Shown here one piece after another: positions 9,800-51,333 of a stretch of 60,080 bases of DNA. The notes below the pieces were generated by a model. That model did no database searches, was not told where the DNA came from, and saw only the letters and a program-made list of their open reading frames with translations. How positions within the stretch are numbered: the stretch's first letter is position 1; every line of letters begins with the position of its first letter. The position numbers and the translations under genes are program-made. Origin of the DNA: Cyanobacteria bacterium FACHB-63 (GTDB taxonomy: Bacteria; Cyanobacteriota; Cyanobacteriia; Leptolyngbyales; Leptolyngbyaceae); contig JACJNX010000059.1 in the NCBI GenBank assembly GCA_014695255.1, positions 1 through 60,080 on the forward strand. The letters are read 5' to 3'.

Positions 9800-9967
9800 T
9801 TGTCAGAACGATCCAACAAGTCTGCGGAAGGATCACACGAAGCTGCGGGAAGATCACACGAAGCTGCGGAAAGGTTAAACGATCCTGCGGAAAGGTTAAA
9901 CGATCCTGCGGAATCCTACAGCGAGTCTGCGAACAGATCACATCAACCTGCGAAAAGATCACACCCG
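9800..9967. repeat. 21-bp tandem repeat, eight units
   Basis: Units of exactly 21 bp follow one another with the core CTGCGGAAAGGTTAAACGAT; the first (9800-9820) is degenerate. Because 21 is a multiple of three, every frame gives a seven-residue repeat: on the plus strand AERLNDP, on the minus strand PQDRLTF. The plus frame 9800-10048 and minus frame 9783-9983 are both open, but neither has a ribosome site or recognisable domain. Adjacent units are more alike than distant ones, the pattern expected of local duplication. Confidence 0.8.
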
Positions 9968-23509: not shown

Positions 23510-24583
23510 ATGCCTGCATCACCATTAAACTCAAACGATAATCATTCGACTATGACTTTGAATCCACGACTTGGCGCAAGTGCGCCAAAAGCAGCGCTAA
23601 AACTCTTTTTACCGCTGTCACTTATTTCGATCGCGCTCGTTGCAGGCGAACTCAAAGCGAATGCACAAGAACCAAGCACAGTTAAAGCTGCTACCCGTTC
23701 CGTTGCTTCAAATGGTGCAGCATCATTGGGTCAACCTGCGATCGGCATCAATCAGCTTCCTGTAAGCCAGGGATTTGCGGCTGATGCTCGCTTTACGGTT
23801 GCACAAACGACACCTTCTACGCCAAGCGAAATTGCTCCGGGTCGATCAGTTCCGGGAAACACCCCTGCGGGCAATCCAACAAACCCCGCAGATACAACAC
23901 CGAGCAATACCACTCCGAGCACGACACAAGATGCAACACCCGTTGCACCTGCCACCACGCCTTCTGGTACGACCACAACACCAGGCACGACTACGCCTGA
24001 AACAACGCCTTCAGGCACGACCACCACGCCTTCTGGTACGACCACAACACCAGGCACGACCACGCCCGAAACCACTCCGGGCACGACCACCACGCCTGAC
24101 ACCACAACACCTGGAACAACACCTGGAACAACGCCAACTACCGAGTTTGCGCCTGGGCGTGCAACCCGTTCTGGTTCTAGCTACTTCGGAGTCGGCGGTA
24201 ACATTGGAATTGGCGATGGTGACATTGCTCTAGGTGAGGGTAGCTTTGCGTTATTAAGCAAGATTGGCTTAACGCGGAATATATCGGTTCGTCCATCTGT
24301 GTTATTTGCTGACGATGTGGCGATTCTTCTGCCTATCACTTATGACTTTAGCTTCGGTGAAAGTGTGACAGGTGACTTAGGATTTACAGCGGCTCCCTTT
24401 TTGGGAGTTGGTGCAGCCATTTCGACGGGTCGCGGCGGTGATGTCGGTCTGCTGCTGACGGGTGGAATTGATGTGCCAATTTCGTCGCAATTTACGGCAA
24501 CGGCTTCGGTGAATGCTTCTGTGACGGGTCAAGCCGCAGTAGGCGTTCTTCTGGGAATTGGCTATAACTTTGCAGGGTTCTAG
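23510..24583 (+). CDS. secreted outer-membrane-like protein with Thr/Pro-rich linker
   Basis: The 357-aa protein has a long signal sequence (hydrophobic core LKLFLPLSLISIALVAGEL near 31-48, cleavage after ANA). A low-complexity linker at about 115-215 is built from TTTPGTTTPETTPSG-like repeats. The C-terminal 140 residues alternate short amphipathic strands (YFGVGGNIGIGDGDIALG ... AAVGVLLGIGYNFAGF) and end in Phe, as outer-membrane beta barrels do. An 8-strand barrel with a periplasmic linker is my inference. It follows the FHA-PrsW gene by 110 bp. An in-frame ATG at 23552 is an alternative start. Confidence 0.75.
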   Translation: MPASPLNSNDNHSTMTLNPRLGASAPKAALKLFLPLSLISIALVAGELKANAQEPSTVKAATRSVASNGAASLGQPAIGINQLPVSQGFAADARFTVAQTTPSTPSEIAPGRSVPGNTPAGNPTNPADTTPSNTTPSTTQDATPVAPATTPSGTTTTPGTTTPETTPSGTTTTPSGTTTTPGTTTPETTPGTTTTPDTTTPGTTPGTTPTTEFAPGRATRSGSSYFGVGGNIGIGDGDIALGEGSFALLSKIGLTRNISVRPSVLFADDVAILLPITYDFSFGESVTGDLGFTAAPFLGVGAAISTGRGGDVGLLLTGGIDVPISSQFTATASVNASVTGQAAVGVLLGIGYNFAGF

Positions 24584-35139: not shown

Positions 35140-36528
35140 ATGTTTGACAGTCTTTCTAATGTGGCTTACATTGCCGCCAGTGCATTGTTTATTTTAAGCT
35201 TGAGCGGACTTTCTAATCAGGAAACCGCAACCAAGGGGAATTGGTATGGAATTGCAGGAATGTCGATCGCATTTCTCGCAACTGTGCTTCGCAGTGATGT
35301 CACCGGATACGGAGTTCTGGCAACCGTCATTCTACCCGGTGCAATCATTGGTGCAATATTGGCGAGCCGAGTTGCCATGACCGAGATGCCTGAGCTAGTT
35401 GCAATGCTGCATAGCTTTGTTGGAATGGCTGCGGTACTGGTGGGAATTGCTAACCATCTACAACCGCAAACTTTAATTGGAGCAGAAGCAACCATTCATC
35501 AAGCTGAAATTTTTATCGGTGCGTTTATTGGGGCGGTAACATTTACGGGATCGATCGTGGCGTTTGGAAAGCTGCGAGGATTAATCAGCAGTAAGTCGCT
35601 ATTGCTTCCAGGACGGCATCTATTAAACATTGGATTGTTAGGGGCTTGTGTAGCATTAGGAGCACAGTTCTTAGCGCATCAATCAACCACAGCACTGTTA
35701 ATCATGTGTGTACTGGCGGGTGTTCTGGGTGTGCATCTAGTTATGGCGATCGGTGGTGCAGATATGCCCGTTGTGATTTCCATGTTGAATAGCTACTCTG
35801 GCTGGGCTGCGGCTGCGGCTGGATTTATGCTGTCGAATGATCTGTTGATCATCACAGGTGCACTAGTCGGAAGTAGTGGCGCGATTCTAAGCTACATCAT
35901 GTGTAAGGCGATGAATCGATCGTTTATCAGTGTCATCTTAGGTGGATTTGGAACAGGCAATAGTTCTAACGCTAGAGAGATCACCGGAGAAGCTAAATCG
36001 ATTTCAATTGAGGAAACCGTTGAGCAATTAGAAAATGCTAACAGTGTCATCATTGTTCCAGGCTACGGTATGGCGGTAGCGCAAGCACAGCACCCGATCT
36101 CTGAGATTACAAAAATCTTGCGAAGTCGCGGTATTAATGTTCGGTTCGGCATTCATCCCGTCGCCGGAAGGCTTCCAGGACATATGAATGTGTTACTCGC
36201 TGAAGCGAAAGTACCTTATGACATTGTTCTAGAAATGGAGGAGATCAATGATGATTTTGCTGAAACGGATGTCGTGCTAGTAATTGGTGCGAATGATACC
36301 GTCAACCCTAGCGCAGTGGAAGATCCAAGCTGCTCGATCGCAGGAATGCCCGTTCTAGAGGTATGGAAGGCGAAGACGACGATCGTGCTGAAGCGCAGTC
36401 TTGGAAGTGGATATGCAGGCGTGGAAAATCCACTGTTTTACAAGGAAAACACCCATATGCTTTTTGGCGATGCGAAGAAAAACACGGATGCGATTCTGAA
36501 TCAACTTAACGCATTGGTTGTCGCCTAA
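35140..36528 (+). CDS. pntB: NAD(P) transhydrogenase subunit beta
   Basis: The 462-aa subunit has about nine helices in its first 265 residues and a soluble NADP(H)-binding domain at the C-terminus: [53 protein letters not shown] and the lid [16 protein letters not shown]. It begins 9 bp after pntA. The terminator-like hairpin at 36597 ends the pair. Confidence 0.95.
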
Positions 36529-36596
36529 ACCCCGTTGCATCTCGCAACCGTAGAAGCTTAGCGCTTTTACGTCTTTTCAAGGTCAAACGTCATGGT

Positions 36597-36635
36597 AATC
36601 GCCTCATTGGAGTTATTCAGTGGGCGATTTTTTAT
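36597..36635 (+). terminator. probable terminator after pntB
   Basis: AATCGCC (36597-36603) and GGCGATT (36623-36629) form the stem base, with further imperfect pairing (CATTG with CAGTG) inside, followed by TTTTATTT. Confidence 0.55.
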
Positions 36636-36690
36636 TTCAGAGGGTTTGTAACGCGATCGCTATCCTCTCTGAACTACGATCGCACTCAAA

Positions 36691-37989
36691 CTACTTGGAC
36701 TCTGGATTGACGATCGAACCCATGAACAAAATCTCCCCGGTTCGATTGTCCCGAATTGCACAGAAGAAGGGTCGATCGACAATTATCTTAAACGGCTCTT
36801 GTTCGATCGGAAGCGAAGTTGGAACAATTCCAATCGAAGTCACTGCGGCTGCCTCAGTTCCTTCCTCGTTCACTTCAACAAACGTCTTATGTTTGACTTG
36901 ATCAATTTTAGTAGTGGCTTTACTTAAACCAGAGAAATCCGCAGCATCATCAAACGCAATCCCCATACCGATCGCTGACAGTGCCGTTTTCAGTTCGACC
37001 TCATAATCCATCTTGAAGCGGGGCAGTTGAATTTCTCCGTCACGGCTACTAAATTGCCTCATCCAAGTCTGCCAATTCTGAGCCGTTAAAGTCTTCTGAA
37101 ACTCAGCTAAATTCGACTTGGGCAGAAACACATACATGCTTAGCCGTCGATCGCCGTAAGGTAAGCTAATCGCCTGAAATTGATTCGTTTCAGCATAGCG
37201 ATACTTGCCTTGCCGCTTCATCAAAGGCACTTGTTTTTTTGAGCCATTCGTTAGCGAAAAGGGTCGGGTTTGGGTATTGTTTTTATCAAATTCATCTGTC
37301 CATTGACCTTTGAAGTAAATCGCATTGATCAGAAACATCACATCGTCTGGATTAATGCGATCGATAATCTTCGGAATTTTGCCGCGTGTACTTTCCTCCA
37401 CCCAGCTATTAATCTCATCAGGCGCACTAGGCTGATTGAAATTTAAGGACTTAACCTTCGCATCATAAAATTTTGCATTTCTCTCTAAGAAACCTGGATT
37501 AAACGCAACTCCTTGTTTTGCCCAAAGCGAATTTGCGATCGACAGTTGAACTTTTGGATCAGCTTTTTCAAGAGTCGCTCTCAAATCACTGTGCGCTTGG
37601 TTAACTTGTTCAAGCGTCATACCCTGAAACTCTAGCGCTTTCGCCATTGCTGCCTTCGTTTCACCGTTAGCACCGTTGTACGCCATCGAAAGCGCGATCG
37701 CCACACTTGAAGGCGAGACAAACACATTCTTGTTGCGGTCTTGCTTCAGAACCTCAGAAAACAACTTAAACCCAAACTTTGTATTGGCTTCCACAATTTT
37801 CGGATTAACGGCTTGAACGGGTTTAGATCGCTCTGCTACACGGGTACGTGCTCGTGTAGCCGGACTAATTTCTAGTTTAGGATTTTGTGAACTTGCAGAA
37901 CTAGAACAAGAAATCGCGCTAATCGCAATCAGGGTAACGATCAGTGCAACTCCAACTTTAAGATATTTCGCGCGTTGAACGATGACCAT
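36691..37989 (-). CDS. serpin-family protease inhibitor, exported
   Basis: ATG 37989 is chosen because GAGAGGAG lies just upstream; the frame to 38112 would add 41 unlike residues. The 432-aa protein has an export signal with a weak lipobox (core VGVALIVTLIAIS, Cys28). The serpin fold follows from about 62: FKLFSEVLKQDRNKNVFVSP, SIANSLWAKQG, LINAIYFKGQW. The reactive loop has the hinge VNEEGTEAAAVTS, Gly/Thr/Ala-rich as in inhibitory serpins, then IGIVPTSLP; by counting from the hinge, P1 is near the Thr-Ser of PTS. The loop closes with DRPFFCAIRDNRTGEILFMG. A subtilase gene lies directly upstream on the same strand. Confidence 0.92.
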   Translation of the reverse strand: MVIVQRAKYLKVGVALIVTLIAISAISCSSSASSQNPKLEISPATRARTRVAERSKPVQAVNPKIVEANTKFGFKLFSEVLKQDRNKNVFVSPSSVAIALSMAYNGANGETKAAMAKALEFQGMTLEQVNQAHSDLRATLEKADPKVQLSIANSLWAKQGVAFNPGFLERNAKFYDAKVKSLNFNQPSAPDEINSWVEESTRGKIPKIIDRINPDDVMFLINAIYFKGQWTDEFDKNNTQTRPFSLTNGSKKQVPLMKRQGKYRYAETNQFQAISLPYGDRRLSMYVFLPKSNLAEFQKTLTAQNWQTWMRQFSSRDGEIQLPRFKMDYEVELKTALSAIGMGIAFDDAADFSGLSKATTKIDQVKHKTFVEVNEEGTEAAAVTSIGIVPTSLPIEQEPFKIIVDRPFFCAIRDNRTGEILFMGSIVNPESK

Positions 37990-38007
37990 ACTCCTCTCCA
38001 AGAAAAT

Positions 38008-38035
38008 TTGGAATTGATCGATCGACCAATTCCAA
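38008..38035. promoter_or_regulatory. 28-bp near-palindrome upstream of the serpin gene
   Basis: TTGGAATTGATCGATCGACCAATTCCAA is self-complementary except for one pair of positions. It lies 19-46 bp before the serpin ATG, where a dimeric repressor would block the promoter or ribosome access. A related CAATTCC half-site recurs at 38104-38110. Confidence 0.5.
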
Positions 38036-38042
38036 TAGACCT

Positions 38043-38070
38043 CAATTGTGTAGCGCCAATTGTGTAGCGC
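38043..38070. repeat. 14-bp tandem duplication in the serpin upstream region
   Basis: CAATTGTGTAGCGC occurs twice without a gap (38043-38056, 38057-38070). A diverged third copy, CAATTGCGTAGAGCGC, is near 38113. The gap between serpin and subtilase genes is 144 bp, so half of it is repeat or palindrome. Confidence 0.7.
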
Positions 38071-38133
38071 CTCGATGAATTCGCTATCTATGGCTACATT
38101 AATCAATTCCACAATTGCGTAGAGCGCGCGTTA

Positions 38134-39732
38134 CTATTTTTGAGACGGAGCCGTCCACCATGCCAGCGCATACGATTGTACTGGCTGATTCACTTGCTGA
38201 CGGAAAACGACCCGAATTTTATAACGTCCGGTTGCTGGCACCGGGTAAAAAATATGCTGGACACTATCAATGTCGCTGATTGATGACCAGATGCTTTTGC
38301 CAATGTCATTATCTTCCGCCCGCATCAGGTAAAGATCCAGCTTATTCAGTCCCCGATCGCGAAAGCTCTCCCCAATCTCAAATTCCCCGTTGCGATTGCG
38401 ATCGTTTAATTCAACCAATCGATTCCAGGCTAAGGTTGCAGAAACATAGCTTCCTTGCAGCAAAGGCTTCTCGATCAGATAGTCTTGTACTGATTTTTTT
38501 TCGATTTTGCCGTAATTCCAGCCGATCGCCGGGACTGCTCGATTTGGTGTCCATTGTCCGGTACTAAACTGCTGATACGCGCGAAACGCATTCAGTTGTC
38601 CCGCGCCCATCTGAATGTTTAAGGGAATTTTGCGGTCTTTGTACGCATCAGAATCCACCCAGGTTTTATTGTCTTTCTCTAAAATCGTGCGCGTCATTCC
38701 AAGCGATCGCCCATCCCCTTTATCTTTAATCTTGTCAGCAGAATTCATCAGCACTGCTTTCATCACTTCATGCCGACGGGCATCGGTTGTCCAGGGTAAC
38801 TTACACCCCCCTTTACAACCCGCTCGGAGTTGCCGATCGCCAAATTCCTGCAACAACGCCACGGTTGCGGTCACATGAGGAGCTGCGAAACTTGAGCCAA
38901 CGGCGGTCGTTTGTTTACCCCTGAGATTTGCGACGTTAATCTTACTTCCCGGAGCCGTGAGCGAGAGCGATCGACGACCTCCTAAGCTCGTCTCAATGCC
39001 ATCGTTGCGCTTAAAAATGCGCGGATAGGTATCTCCAATATTTGAGAAATCAATCTTTGCATACTCCGCTCCGACTCGCCGCGTGAACGAAACGGTCATG
39101 CCGTTATAGCTATCAGTTGGAATTGGAATGCCGCCTTTTCCTTGATTCCCTGCCACGATGAACAAAGAATTATGCTTCATTGATAACCAATCAATACATT
39201 GGGTTAGAAGTGCATTTCCGTCTAATCGAGCATTCGGGCGTGGATCTTGCTGCAATGCTTCCCCAAAGCTGAAATTAATCGCCCTCACATCTCCCCCATT
39301 TTGCAAAGTGACCTGCTGGGCTGAAAGACATTCCTCAGATTGTCCGCTGCGCTGTGGAGTGGCTGCGGCAGAAGAATAAAGCCGAGCCTCTGGCGCAACT
39401 CCTCGCACCGCTTTACTATCCCCAATCATCACACTCGCAACCTGAGCCGCGTGAGTATCCAAATTTGTATTCGTTTTTGCGGGCTGATTGCGGAAAAACA
39501 CCCGCGTTAAGTCGATCGTCTGGTTCGTTGTACTGGCTTTATCCACACCAAATCGAGGAGGTCGTCCGATTTCCACTTGCCCGATCGCAATCTTTTTTCC
39601 AGTGAGATTGTAGGGAGCTTGCTGAAGTCGGAGTGCATCAATGCCAGAGGCACCGATCGAGCTTTCCGCTATCGGCATCGCTTGTGCGGCGACCGCAATC
39701 CACATTCCACCAAATCCCACCAGCCACTTCAT
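38134..39732 (-). CDS. secreted S8 (subtilisin-like) protease with Glu in place of the usual Asp
   Basis: The 532-aa protein has a signal peptide (1-18, ending AQA) and a subtilase domain. Catalytic His94 lies in LDTHAAQVASVM, oxyanion Asn196 in FIVAGNQGKGG and catalytic Ser281 in AVGSSFAAPHV. Where subtilases have Asp-x-Gly, this protein has Glu54 (IAIGQVEIGRP). The C-terminal 140 residues form a beta-rich domain (SYVSATLAWNRLVELNDRNR; YKIRVVFRQQV) resembling pre-peptidase or P-domain-like modules. It probably acts in the periplasm or outside. The serpin gene downstream suggests an enzyme-inhibitor pair, although serpins inhibiting this particular enzyme is an inference. Confidence 0.85.
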   Translation of the reverse strand: MKWLVGFGGMWIAVAAQAMPIAESSIGASGIDALRLQQAPYNLTGKKIAIGQVEIGRPPRFGVDKASTTNQTIDLTRVFFRNQPAKTNTNLDTHAAQVASVMIGDSKAVRGVAPEARLYSSAAATPQRSGQSEECLSAQQVTLQNGGDVRAINFSFGEALQQDPRPNARLDGNALLTQCIDWLSMKHNSLFIVAGNQGKGGIPIPTDSYNGMTVSFTRRVGAEYAKIDFSNIGDTYPRIFKRNDGIETSLGGRRSLSLTAPGSKINVANLRGKQTTAVGSSFAAPHVTATVALLQEFGDRQLRAGCKGGCKLPWTTDARRHEVMKAVLMNSADKIKDKGDGRSLGMTRTILEKDNKTWVDSDAYKDRKIPLNIQMGAGQLNAFRAYQQFSTGQWTPNRAVPAIGWNYGKIEKKSVQDYLIEKPLLQGSYVSATLAWNRLVELNDRNRNGEFEIGESFRDRGLNKLDLYLMRAEDNDIGKSIWSSISDIDSVQHIFYPVPATGRYKIRVVFRQQVNQPVQSYALAWWTAPSQK

Positions 39733-39859
39733 CTTTACACTCCGTTTTTGAGTATTTATTCCTAAAATTTGTGCAAACCCTGACCAAAATCTGAGAGAAA
39801 GCCTTCACAATTTGTTAAACTGATCACAAAATCATGCTCTCCAAGGAGAACACACCGTC

Positions 39860-40555
39860 ATGTCCAATAAACCGATCGTCATTGCACCTTCGATTCTCTC
39901 TGCTGATTTTAGTCGGTTAGGCGACGAAATTCGTGCGGTGGATGCCGCCGGAGCCGACTGGATTCACGTTGATGTGATGGATGGTCGGTTTGTGCCGAAC
40001 ATTACGATCGGCCCCCTGATCGTTGAAGCAATCCGCCCTGTGACCCAGAAGCCGCTGGATGTTCACTTGATGATTGTAGAGCCAGAGAAGTACGTCGGTG
40101 ATTTTGCCAAAGCTGGAGCGGATCACATCTACGTTCACGCGGAACACAATGCCTCGCCGCACCTGCATCGCACTCTGGGACAGATCAAAGAGTACGGCAA
40201 AAAAGCAGGAGTTGTACTCAATCCAGGTAGCCCCTTGGAACTGATCGATTATGTTCTAGAACTCTGCGATCTAGTTCTGATTATGAGCGTTAACCCTGGA
40301 TTTGGTGGACAAAGCTTTATTCCCGGTGTGTTGCCGAAAATTCGTAAGCTGCGCCAAATGTGCGATGAGCGCGGACTCGATCCCTGGATCGAAGTCGATG
40401 GTGGCTTGAAAGCGAACAACACCTGGCAAGTCATCGAAGCTGGTGCAAACGCGATCGTCGCGGGTTCTGCGGTGTTTAATGCCCCCGATTATGCAGCGGC
40501 GATCGAAGGCATTCGCAACAGCAAGCGCCCCGCACCGGAACTCGCAACCGTTTAA
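39860..40555 (+). CDS. rpe: ribulose-phosphate 3-epimerase
   Basis: The enzyme interconverts ribulose 5-phosphate and xylulose 5-phosphate in the Calvin cycle and pentose phosphate pathway. The 231-aa TIM barrel has [16 protein letters not shown], the metal ligands in [15 protein letters not shown] and [19 protein letters not shown] and [10 protein letters not shown]. It is monocistronic, with AAGGAG 13 nt before the ATG and a strong terminator. Confidence 0.96.
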
Positions 40556-40576
40556 TTGATTCAATTCCGATTAAGC

Positions 40577-40612
40577 CAAAAAAGCCGATCGCAGTAGTGC
40601 GATCGGCTTTTT
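40577..40612. terminator. bidirectional terminator between rpe and the two-component operon
   Basis: GCCGATCGCA, loop GTAG, TGCGATCGGC: a perfect 10-bp stem flanked by seven A on the left and five T on the right, so it can serve both convergent transcripts. Confidence 0.92.
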
Positions 40613-40628
40613 GCATTCCATCCCTTGA

Positions 40629-41354
40629 TCAAACTGAGTCTTCGCTCATAATCCGAGCTAAATTACAGTTTCGCAGCAGTTCAGCGCTCTCTGGAATCAG
40701 ATGCTCCTGAAGCTGATATACCGCTTGCAGCACCGCCAACTCCCGTCCGTAGTCACGCTCCACGATGTCGATCGCTGATTCCTGTCCAGTTTGCCCTAAC
40801 CTCAATAAATGCAGCGCCATATTGATATTAGAAAGCGGATTGCGAAGCTCCTGGTAGAAATGGTTCAGCAAACCATCGCGGGTTCCAGAAACTTGTGGCG
40901 CAGTTTCAGGCAGAGAAACTGGCTGACTTTTCGCTTTTTCTGGTTTGGCTGGCTCAACCTGGCGCGAATAGCTCTCCGCTAACGCCTCATATTTTGCCAA
41001 GCGACCAGCCACTGCCCCTAGCAAATCCGTCGCCGTGCAGGGCTTAGTCAGATAGTCGTCCGCACCGAGTTCCATCCCTTGACGCTGGTCAGTTTTGGCG
41101 CTGCGAGCAGAGAGAAAAATAAACGGAATTCCAGCCGTATCGGGCGAGGTGCGGAGTTGAGTCAGCACAGAGAAGCCATCACAGTCGGGCATCGTCACGT
41201 CGCACAAGATCAAATCTGGATGATGATCGTGTGCCAGTTGCACCCCAACCTGACCATTCTCGCTGCCAATTCCCCGAAATCCCTCAGCTTCCAGTAAATC
41301 TAAAATCGACTCTCGAACGGTTTGTTCGTCTTCAATCACGAGGATCGTTTTCAT
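40629..41354 (-). CDS. response regulator with degenerate histidine-kinase dimerisation helix
   Basis: The 241-aa protein has a REC domain (1-120) with the acidic pair (VIEDEQ), phospho-acceptor Asp in LILCDVTMPDCDG and Lys in YLTKPC. After a linker comes a segment like a HisKA helix, but the position of the phospho-His is occupied by Gln (FYQELRNPLSNINMAL), and no ATPase domain follows. It may bind a partner kinase as a dimerisation or adaptor module. It overlaps the preceding kinase gene by 23 bp and ends the operon. Confidence 0.85.
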   Translation of the reverse strand: MKTILVIEDEQTVRESILDLLEAEGFRGIGSENGQVGVQLAHDHHPDLILCDVTMPDCDGFSVLTQLRTSPDTAGIPFIFLSARSAKTDQRQGMELGADDYLTKPCTATDLLGAVAGRLAKYEALAESYSRQVEPAKPEKAKSQPVSLPETAPQVSGTRDGLLNHFYQELRNPLSNINMALHLLRLGQTGQESAIDIVERDYGRELAVLQAVYQLQEHLIPESAELLRNCNLARIMSEDSV

Positions 41355-48314: not shown

Positions 48315-48715
48315 TAGCTTGTTGTAATTGCTAGGTGAGCCAATCCAGAACCCTACGATCGTCTCTGGATCTTTCATTACTTCTATAGACTGACAACCGA
48401 TTCTTGCTCTCATCGAGCCGATCGGTTGAGTCATACTGAGCTGCTTGAACTCTAGGCCTTGAACTCTAGGCCTTGAACTCTAAGCCTTGAACTCTGAACC
48501 TTGATTTCACAGACTGCTTAGAGTCTTATCAGAGTCTTAATTTTTTACATTTAGGCCTGCTTAGGGCGGATTTGGCTTACCGCAGTTAAAGCCAATCGTC
48601 TCTGCCTAAATAGTGAACTTTTCTGAAGCATTTGTCAGAATCAGTCCCAAGACATACTTACAATAAGTCTCGAATTCTTTTTGTTCTCTTCAGAATCATT
48701 AGGAAAAATTAAGAT
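48315..48715. other. 401-bp intergenic region upstream of psaL
   Basis: It holds the 14-bp tandem repeat at 48445-48500 and otherwise AT-rich DNA, including the region where psaL promoter elements should lie. I looked for psaI, which often accompanies psaL, and did not find it here. Confidence 0.5.
48445..48500. repeat. 14-bp tandem repeat, four units, upstream of psaL
   Basis: TTGAACTCTAGGCC is repeated twice exactly (48445-48472), followed by TTGAACTCTAAGCC and TTGAACTCTGAACC. Fourteen is twice seven, in line with short tandem repeats common in filamentous cyanobacteria. It ends 215 bp before psaL. Confidence 0.8.
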
Positions 48716-49329: not shown

Positions 49330-51333
49330 ATGCCCTCCCGACCTATGCCCGAACCACAAACCTGGGAATTTTTGATACAGCTAGACGGCGATCGAGCTTG
49401 GCTTCCGTTGGACACTTCCGAAATTCTGGAAGGTCGGTATCGCATTGCCGCAAAATCAGGCTATAAAAACGCGCCCGTCGAAGTTCGCATTCAATATGAC
49501 GCGATCGACGAAGTTCCACCCAAGCGCCGCTCTCAAACCCGAACCTATCAAACCAATCCAAGCGGCTTAATGGCGGTGATTCCCTTCACGCATCTCCAGT
49601 CTGGGATTTGGGAGTTTCACTGTTCACCCCAAGAAGGCAGTCCGCAGTCGCTGCGGTTTCGGGTGTTGTCACTTGAGTCGGACACGATAGATGATTGGAG
49701 TCCAGTTTGGGATATTGAAGAGTTTGAAGCGATCGGGGTTGAGCCAGTAGAAGCAAAGGCAATCGAAGCCGATCGTCCGTTGGTTGAGGAAGCGTTAAAA
49801 GCAGAACCAGAGCGCGTCTCAGTCGAGGAGATTTTGCAGCAGGCAGAGCAGGAATCGACCACGATCGCAGACGAAATCTTGACCGAATACGGCTTAATCG
49901 CAGAAACACCGTATCCAGATTACAGTTTGCCAGAGACAGTCGTTGCAGCAGCACCACTGGTTGCGATCGATCTCGCTCAAAATACTTATATTGCTCGTTG
50001 GGGCGATTCTTTGAGCATTACTGGACAAATTACTTCGGCTCAAACGACGCATTTCGATGCAGAATTGCGGATTTGCCTACGCGATCCCCAAACTTCTGAA
50101 CTATTGTTAGAAACTTGCAGAACGTTGGATCAAGCCGCGTTACCGTTTGAATTGTCTTATCAGGTCACGCTACCTGCTGGACTTGAGACGCAGCTAGTGT
50201 TGGGAGAGATTACGCTACACGATCCCAAAGTTGAGGGACATCCGATCGTTGCAACCGAATTCTTTACGCTGCTAGCAGAGCTTGATCAGCTACTTGAAGC
50301 GATGTATCAGGCGAAGGAAGGCGATCGGGCAATGGCGGAAGATATGTTAGATTTGCCTGCTCCTCAGTCTGCGGTGCAGCCACCGCTCAATCTTGCTTTT
50401 CTCGACTTTGTTGCGGCTCCAAAAGATCCTGAAGCGGTGAACTTCACGCCAAAAGAAACGCAAGCACTTCCGCCGCAACTGCATCCACCGAGTCCGTACC
50501 GCCGCAAATCGCTGAATCTACCCAACTTCGGCATTCAGCCCGATGGAGCCATTCCTGAATACGCTCCCCCAGAAGCGACTCAGCTAGAAATTCCACTATC
50601 TGAGATTTCTGTGTCTGAGATTTCAGTATCTGAGATTTCAGTATCTGAGATTCCTGCGTCCGAGGTTTCTGAACTGACTGAACCGCTAATCGAAACCCCC
50701 GAAGAACCTACCGAAGAAGCTTTGCTCGATCGGCTTACCCCGGTTGAAGAACCCGAAGCAAGCGAACTCAAGGTTCAAGCCGACGATCGAGAGATCACTC
50801 CCTTAGAAGCGCCTGAACTTCAGGCTGAACCATCGAGCAGCGAAGTGGTAGTCGATGACGAGCCGATCTTGCCGTTCGCTGAATTAATCGTGTCGCGTCG
50901 TCAAAATAAGGGACAGTCCGATCGCGCTCAAAATCCTTTACTGCTGCCGGAGCATGAATCTGTTCCTGATCCGATCGTGACGATCGCAGAAGATGAACTA
51001 ACCGGAGGCAAAACGACGACAGTTCGGATCAAGCTGCCGGACATTGTGCCGAAAATCTACGTCAAACTGTGGGTGAGCGATCGACAAAGCCGCTCTATGA
51101 TTGAGCCGTCGCGCTGGATCATCGACTTTAAACCGGATGGACACGGGAATTTAGAAGCAACAACCGAGGTAAAAGTCCCATTTGAGAGCGTAGAGATTCA
51201 GATCGAGGCGATCGCGATAGAAGTGATGACCAATCGTGAAAGCCATAAAGTGACCGTCGATCGACGAGTCACTCCGGAAGAACTTCCTGACTTATGGATT
51301 GATCCACTTGATGATTCGATTGTTTCGTACTGA
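49330..51333 (+). CDS. large cyanobacterial protein of unknown function
   Basis: The 667-aa acidic protein has no signal peptide. Residues 6-115 form a beta-rich domain (WEFLIQLDGDRAWLPLDTSE; SGIWEFHCSPQEGSPQSLRF). Another beta domain at about 215-320 starts IARWGDSLSITGQITSAQ. A disordered, Glu/Pro-rich part follows, with four to five repeats of SEISV at about 417-440. The C-terminal domain (about 555-660) has TVRIKLPDIVPKIYVKLWVS and resembles Ig-like beta sandwiches. I know no function. A start at ATG 49345 is also possible. Its end overlaps the GNAT gene by 23 bp. Confidence 0.8.
   Translation: MPSRPMPEPQTWEFLIQLDGDRAWLPLDTSEILEGRYRIAAKSGYKNAPVEVRIQYDAIDEVPPKRRSQTRTYQTNPSGLMAVIPFTHLQSGIWEFHCSPQEGSPQSLRFRVLSLESDTIDDWSPVWDIEEFEAIGVEPVEAKAIEADRPLVEEALKAEPERVSVEEILQQAEQESTTIADEILTEYGLIAETPYPDYSLPETVVAAAPLVAIDLAQNTYIARWGDSLSITGQITSAQTTHFDAELRICLRDPQTSELLLETCRTLDQAALPFELSYQVTLPAGLETQLVLGEITLHDPKVEGHPIVATEFFTLLAELDQLLEAMYQAKEGDRAMAEDMLDLPAPQSAVQPPLNLAFLDFVAAPKDPEAVNFTPKETQALPPQLHPPSPYRRKSLNLPNFGIQPDGAIPEYAPPEATQLEIPLSEISVSEISVSEISVSEIPASEVSELTEPLIETPEEPTEEALLDRLTPVEEPEASELKVQADDREITPLEAPELQAEPSSSEVVVDDEPILPFAELIVSRRQNKGQSDRAQNPLLLPEHESVPDPIVTIAEDELTGGKTTTVRIKLPDIVPKIYVKLWVSDRQSRSMIEPSRWIIDFKPDGHGNLEATTEVKVPFESVEIQIEAIAIEVMTNRESHKVTVDRRVTPEELPDLWIDPLDDSIVSY

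Follow-up and report, generated by a model that had tools for sequence, protein, structure and literature searches.

An S8 subtilase gene and a downstream serpin gene form a conserved pair in Cyanobacteriia and may encode a protease-inhibitor module

The window analyzed here is a stretch of 60,080 nucleotides from Cyanobacteria bacterium FACHB-63 (assembly GCA_014695255.1, contig JACJNX010000059.1, positions 1 to 60,080 of the forward strand). It carries a gene for an S8-family subtilisin-like protease (subtilase) and, downstream of it on the same minus strand, a gene for a serpin. An initial annotation had read these as an exported protease followed by an exported inhibitor; its coordinates and strand hold, both products match the corresponding Pfam families, and export signals on both are supported, as judged from sequence. 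The main parts of the locus are:

38134 to 39732, minus strand: S8 subtilase gene, 532 amino acids, with a signal-peptide-like N-terminus (approximately residues 1-18, from sequence only), a catalytic domain and a C-terminal beta-rich domain
37990 to 38133: gap of 144 bp between the S8 and serpin genes
36691 to 37989, minus strand: serpin gene, 432 amino acids, start ATG at 37989
39860 to 40555, plus strand: rpe, encoding ribulose-phosphate 3-epimerase (PF00834), divergent neighbor of the S8 gene

The open reading frame list begins the serpin at a GTG at 38112. In all seven genus members compared the aligned start is the ATG at 37989, which is preceded by GGAGAGGAG, and the serpin is therefore given as 432 amino acids and the gap as 144 bp. 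The other neighbor of the serpin in the window is pntAB. No second serpin was found in the genome, and there are nine S8 genes (ten match rows, two of them in one frame).

Membership of the protease in family S8 is supported by a PF00082 match of 69.7 bits against a cut-off of 21.8, covering profile positions 45-286 of 288; the match begins only at position 45 because the protein departs from the usual S8 pattern at its first catalytic motif. There, A[IL]GQ[VL]EIGRP replaces the VIDTG-type motif in all 29 relatives that contain this region in an initial alignment of 30. Residue conservation was then counted over 114 sequences differing as extracted, the window's own included:

39571 to 39573, minus strand: E54, where the catalytic Asp of an S8 protease would be expected; all 114 have Glu
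39541 to 39543, minus strand: D64, rival candidate for the catalytic acid, 10 residues beyond E54; invariant in 114 of 114, in a low-confidence stretch of the model
39451 to 39453, minus strand: H94, catalytic His, motif D-x-H-A; 114 of 114
39145 to 39147, minus strand: N196, oxyanion-hole Asn, AGNQG; 114 of 114
38890 to 38892, minus strand: S281, catalytic Ser, G[ST]S[FL]; 114 of 114

The protease had been described as being of a type that serpins target. It does belong to S8, but it is not a textbook member, since the classical Asp of a VIDTG-type strand motif is replaced by Glu in every sequence. In a MAFFT alignment with seven further S8 proteins from this genome, E54 falls without gaps on their catalytic Asp; a global hhalign run placed a gap, not E54, at that position. 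In the AlphaFold2 model (predicted local distance difference test score 77.7, predicted template modeling score 0.86) strand 49-55 bears E54 near its end, and the Asp-bearing strand of subtilisin likewise has its Asp near the end. Taken together, the MAFFT alignment and the placement on strand 49-55 make Glu54 the likely catalytic acid, with D64 as the alternative, and the protein is a probable exported subtilase of the Glu-His-Ser type. The invariant Glu, along with low model confidence in the stretches after E54, could also indicate a processing or binding protein that is no active general protease, in which case the serpin would regulate something else or be a substrate of S8. We consider this improbable, as His, Ser and Asn and the residues around them vary little or not at all, a degree of conservation that a dead enzyme would not be expected to show, and a Glu-His-Ser subset of subtilases was reportedly proposed by Siezen et al. 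in 2007.

A search of the S8 protein for an I9 inhibitor propeptide gave no second Pfam match at an E-value of 0.001, and about 30 residues separate the presumed signal peptide from the first strand. The best Foldseek match of the model is the KP-43 alkaline protease (PDB 1wmd, E 6.3e-19), a classical Asp-His-Ser protease, but at only 15% identity. Among 146 sampled genomes of the phylum, only Cyanobacteriia gave matches of at least 600 bits, and the best match in other classes reached 32.2 bits over a short stretch; judged by these matches, the enzyme is a member of a Cyanobacteriia-restricted subfamily. Two S8 matches (G023:C56 and G052:C1) contain one in-frame stop each.

The serpin has a full-length PF00079 (MEROPS I4) match of 415.9 bits, positions 1-370 of 370. 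Its best PDB chain is 5ncs_A (2e-76), which is labelled 'Serpin' and which we take to be miropin because the sister entries 5nct and 5ncw carry that name. Two features of the protein bear on export and inhibition:

37906 to 37908, minus strand: lipobox Cys28 (AISC), from sequence
36808 to 36867, minus strand: reactive-site loop P17-P3' (EEGTEAAAVTSIGIVPT, then SLP from P1' to P3'), with P1 placed by alignment

The inhibitory-type hinge claimed for this serpin is present in full (EEGTEAAAV, with Val at P9) and is ungapped relative to 5ncs_A. The loop is also ungapped through P3', with Thr-Ser at P1-P1' in both proteins. Among 51 serpin rows adjacent to an S8 gene, the hinge residues P17 Glu, P15 Gly, P14 Thr, P12 Ala and P10 Ala occur in all 51, as does Ile, Met or Val at P4. 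P1 is Thr in 37, Leu in nine, Ser in two, Val in two and Met in one, and never basic, and P1' is mostly Ser. One gene (from G051) is counted twice among these rows (L041, L045). Left out of the loop, tree and specificity counts were L010, which is a fragment of the serpin gene in the window itself, L016, which is cut by a contig end, and L023, which has a broken frame, and the rows from genomes lacking S8 cover 20 of 21 such genomes (G114 left out). A heuristic search found a lipobox in 41 of the 51 adjacent rows, 17 of 39 rows elsewhere in S8-containing genomes and two of the 20 S8-less rows. Over these rows as a whole the heuristic missed at least two lipoboxes seen by eye (L164, L172), and the three groups differ in phylogenetic make-up. 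Families f23 and f40 also have tandem serpin gene pairs with differing loops that are not beside S8 (L182, L183, L184).

Conservation of the pair was surveyed in 388 Cyanobacteriia genomes, with distances taken between match ends rather than gene ends. S8 matches occurred in 242 genomes (weak ones in G161, G306 and G368 included) and serpins in 144. Serpins, which the initial annotation had called uncommon in bacteria, are therefore not rare in this class; a review places cyanobacterial serpins only in rare families (PMC6718151), compared with 144 of 388 genomes here. Both genes were present in 123 genomes (87 from match listings, plus 32 of 52 and four of five serpin genomes looked up individually), S8 only in 119, serpin only in 21 and neither in 125. 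The odds ratio for co-occurrence is about 6.2, by arithmetic on the counts and uncorrected for phylogeny. At least 34 genomes in eight families (f1, f13, f24, f25, f27, f28, f32 and f38) have the two matches within 2 kb, and in every one they share a strand and the serpin is downstream. These comprise 32 genomes plus G177 and G313, the last with its serpin in two frames, and the pair counts are lower bounds because extra serpin copies were not all listed. In one genome (G066) the two genes lie 7.1 kb apart with the serpin upstream on the opposite strand, and one member of the same genus (G251) is without both.

A comparison of the best 80 of 424 named loci, which overlap in part with the 388 genomes, gave a similar picture. 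The serpin was downstream on the same strand in 38 (37 within 1.1 kb and L139 at 2.2 kb) and upstream on the other strand in one (L090), and 41 had no serpin, five of them with less than 1.5 kb visible. The expectation that the pair would recur across cyanobacteria is thus borne out. In 73 of the 80 loci rpe is divergent from S8, and six of the remaining seven loci begin less than 500 bp from a contig end; pntAB was found in none of the 80, within flanks of at most 5 kb that were often shorter. As rpe is a Calvin-cycle gene, the divergent arrangement is an observation in its own right, and the two genes may share a promoter region. In L023 and L075 (G313) the serpin beside S8 is split over two frames, reflecting either a pseudogene or an assembly error. 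A contig titled Tatlockia (L132) carries a cyanobacterial-type rpe (95%) and S8 (62%) and is probably mis-binned.

A tree of 110 serpin rows agrees broadly with the organism groups and requires nine changes in adjacency, at least five of them forced by well-supported branches. The simplest reading is an old adjacency that was lost or broken several times. In a mirror-tree comparison of 37 loci the correlation was 0.94 between S8 and serpin, 0.67 between S8 and rpe and 0.65 between serpin and rpe, with a partial correlation of 0.90; this is not taken as proof, because rpe evolves slowly and is a poor control.

Conserved gene order strongly supports interpretation of the locus as a protease-inhibitor module, as the initial annotation had proposed. 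The adjacency it implied holds across lineages; specific inhibition of this S8 by the serpin would be a further, putative step. Several observations weigh against such a dedicated partnership. S8 occurs without a serpin in 119 genomes and serpin without S8 in 21, and at least 34 of the 123 genomes with both have them within 2 kb, the other 89 not doing so among the matches listed, some of them on short contigs. The genome studied here has eight S8 genes besides that of the pair. Adjacency may also be passive, because the order of S8 and rpe is conserved anyway. Thr at P1 is as frequent in genomes lacking S8 (16 of 20 rows) as it is beside S8 (37 of 51). Finally, a basic residue at P2 or P1 is found in two of 51 adjacent rows, eight of 39 elsewhere and 13 of 20 S8-less rows, a contrast that reduces to three to five independent pairs on well-supported branches, with no test significant. 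The scarcity of basic residues beside S8 fits a subtilisin-like target. Loop specificity tied to the presence of S8 was considered as a separate claim and set aside, the counts being suggestive and phylogenetically non-independent.

Many of these observations would be accommodated if the serpin were a general guard against environmental proteases or other proteases of the cell, with its place beside S8 a matter of old synteny and not of dedicated partnership. Genomes with one gene and not the other, and the P1 Thr of S8-less genomes, agree with this, as does the presence of rpe beside S8 in 73 loci when the serpin is there in only part of them. In family f1, moreover, the serpin is kept in three of four S8-less genomes. 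We regard a general guard as a serious possibility, if one that we would sooner bet against. Its weaknesses are that order and strand are invariant among the 34 close pairs, though pntAB on the far side recurs in none of the 80 loci, and that S8 and serpin co-occur well above independence by the uncorrected odds ratio.

The 144-bp gap contains the 28-bp near-palindrome and 14-bp tandem duplication that had been reported there:

38008 to 38035, minus strand: 28-bp near-palindrome, 13 of 14 positions complementary, able to form in a transcript a 12-pair hairpin with loop GATC
38043 to 38070: 14-bp exact tandem duplication, with a third copy (86%) at 38112-38125

The palindrome ends 18 nt ahead of the serpin start, outside the ribosome site. 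Among 2000 first-order Markov sequences, each 144 bp long, one had such a palindrome and none of 2000 an exact 14-bp tandem; chance alone would not be expected to yield repeats this good in a gap of this length. In the 7.2-Mb genome, both the palindrome (with up to three mismatches) and the exact 14-mer occur at this locus only. A dispersed operator or repeat is ruled out for the palindrome by its single genomic site, and the tandem duplication is ruled out as a conserved element by genus comparison and genome search; by that comparison it is lineage-specific, seen only in this window and, as a degenerate version, in its closest relative (G170).

The palindrome arms are complementary in all seven genus members (12 of 12 or 10 of 10 pairs as laid out). 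Between the window's clade and G197 and G265, two hairpin pairs differ in both bases and others in a single base, and none is broken. A single base is bulged in three genomes (G115, G211 and G282), and the G265 arms stand about 93 nt apart and are followed by seven T. RNA folding of the gap gave a z-score of -2.3. This covariation is modest evidence, because the arms were hand-picked in each sequence and both double changes fall on one branch; it suggests a genus-level element that, like an RNA hairpin, keeps its pairing as the sequence diverges. A near-perfect 28-bp palindrome might also recall an operator for a DNA-binding regulator. That is very improbable here: the genome has a single site at up to three mismatches, and an operator would hardly tolerate a sequence that shifts with its pairing kept, a bulge in three genomes or arms set so far apart in G265.

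No hairpin common to the gaps of other families was seen, the strongest hairpins there differing in sequence and position. The idea that repeats make up a control region for the pair as a whole consequently does not extend past this genus: the palindrome is genus-level, the duplication belongs to one lineage, and gaps in other families differ. A search of positions 36000-41000 gave no known RNA family at the gathering threshold. No sigma-70-like promoter was predicted in the gap, and positions 36400-39900 hold one such site, upstream of rpe, compared with 4.1 in shuffled sequences. The same interval has eight terminator-like sites, the palindrome among them, compared with 4.0 (standard deviation 2.3) in shuffles, which is not decisive. 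The hairpin is most likely a leaky terminator or a protector of a transcript 3' end. A second 28-bp near-palindrome, different in sequence and also 13 of 14, lies at 40582-40609, where rpe and a response-regulator-like gene converge, and is perhaps a terminator. Elsewhere in the window, arrays of tandem repeats (unit length 12-69 bp) occur at 502-635, 9822-9964, 23952-24132, 48444-48504 and 50590-50671, some of them probably coding.

The reading we favor, at what we judge to be about even chances, is a dedicated protease-inhibitor pair, that is, an old cyanobacterial locus encoding an exported subtilase and a downstream exported serpin that would inhibit it. The locus would have been inherited mainly vertically in cyanobacteria, and the two genes may be co-transcribed. 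The exported subtilase, probably of the Glu-His-Ser type, would act without an I9 inhibitor prodomain, while the serpin, predicted to be exported and in this genome lipid-anchored, would offer its loop (Ile, Met or Val at P4, mainly Thr or Leu at P1 and mainly Ser at P1') as bait. On cutting this loop, S8 would be trapped covalently by the serpin, which would keep periplasmic or cell-surface proteolysis within limits. Within the genus, the intergenic RNA hairpin and the T-rich stretch after it probably set the level of inhibitor relative to enzyme. A bolder version, which we offer tentatively and think rather unlikely, is that the system dates to an early ancestor and that a separately encoded, membrane-anchored serpin restrains the exported Glu-His-Ser subtilase and thereby stands in for its missing prodomain. 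The pair names a candidate natural target for a bacterial serpin. If the favored reading is true, serpins would serve as dedicated regulators of a cell's own protease in free-living bacteria, beyond shielding against host or environmental proteases, and the pair would give a first functional lead for a family of cyanobacterial subtilases in which the catalytic acid is altered.

The individual ingredients are of known kinds. The Glu-His-Ser subset of subtilases is reported to have Glu for the catalytic Asp in an S8 fold, as is likely here, and the pairing with a serpin is additional in this case. The novelty lies in how widely cyanobacteria conserve the pair, in a Glu-type enzyme specific to this clade and in the one fixed gene order; the literature searched, which did not reach most subscription papers, gave no account of an S8-serpin pair in cyanobacteria.

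Targets of many prokaryotic serpins are described as elusive in the chloropin paper (PMC10090351), and inhibition of subtilisin-like proteases has several precedents. Miropin inhibits subtilisin, according to a review (PMC6718151), and the loop of 5ncs_A, taken here as miropin, has the same length through P3' and the same Thr-Ser at P1-P1' as that of the serpin in the window, although Tannerella forsythia, from which miropin comes, is a host-associated bacterium. Pnserpin also inhibits subtilisin-like proteases (PMC5297747). In Clostridium thermocellum, an exported serpin inhibits subtilisin and has been proposed to control the bacterium's own subtilisin-like protease; two of its three serpins are cellulosomal, unlike the one described here, and the part of the review available does not mention adjacency to a protease gene (PMC6718151). 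The closest parallel is Ca. N. ianthellae, a sponge-symbiont thaumarchaeon in which serpins predicted to be extracellular often adjoin S8 (S08A) genes, and whose authors suggest that serpins regulate its own proteases (PMC6790972). That organism is an archaeon with 15 serpin and 11 S8 genes, whereas the cyanobacterial locus pairs one serpin with one clade-specific S8, in fixed order, beside rpe and in several cyanobacterial families.

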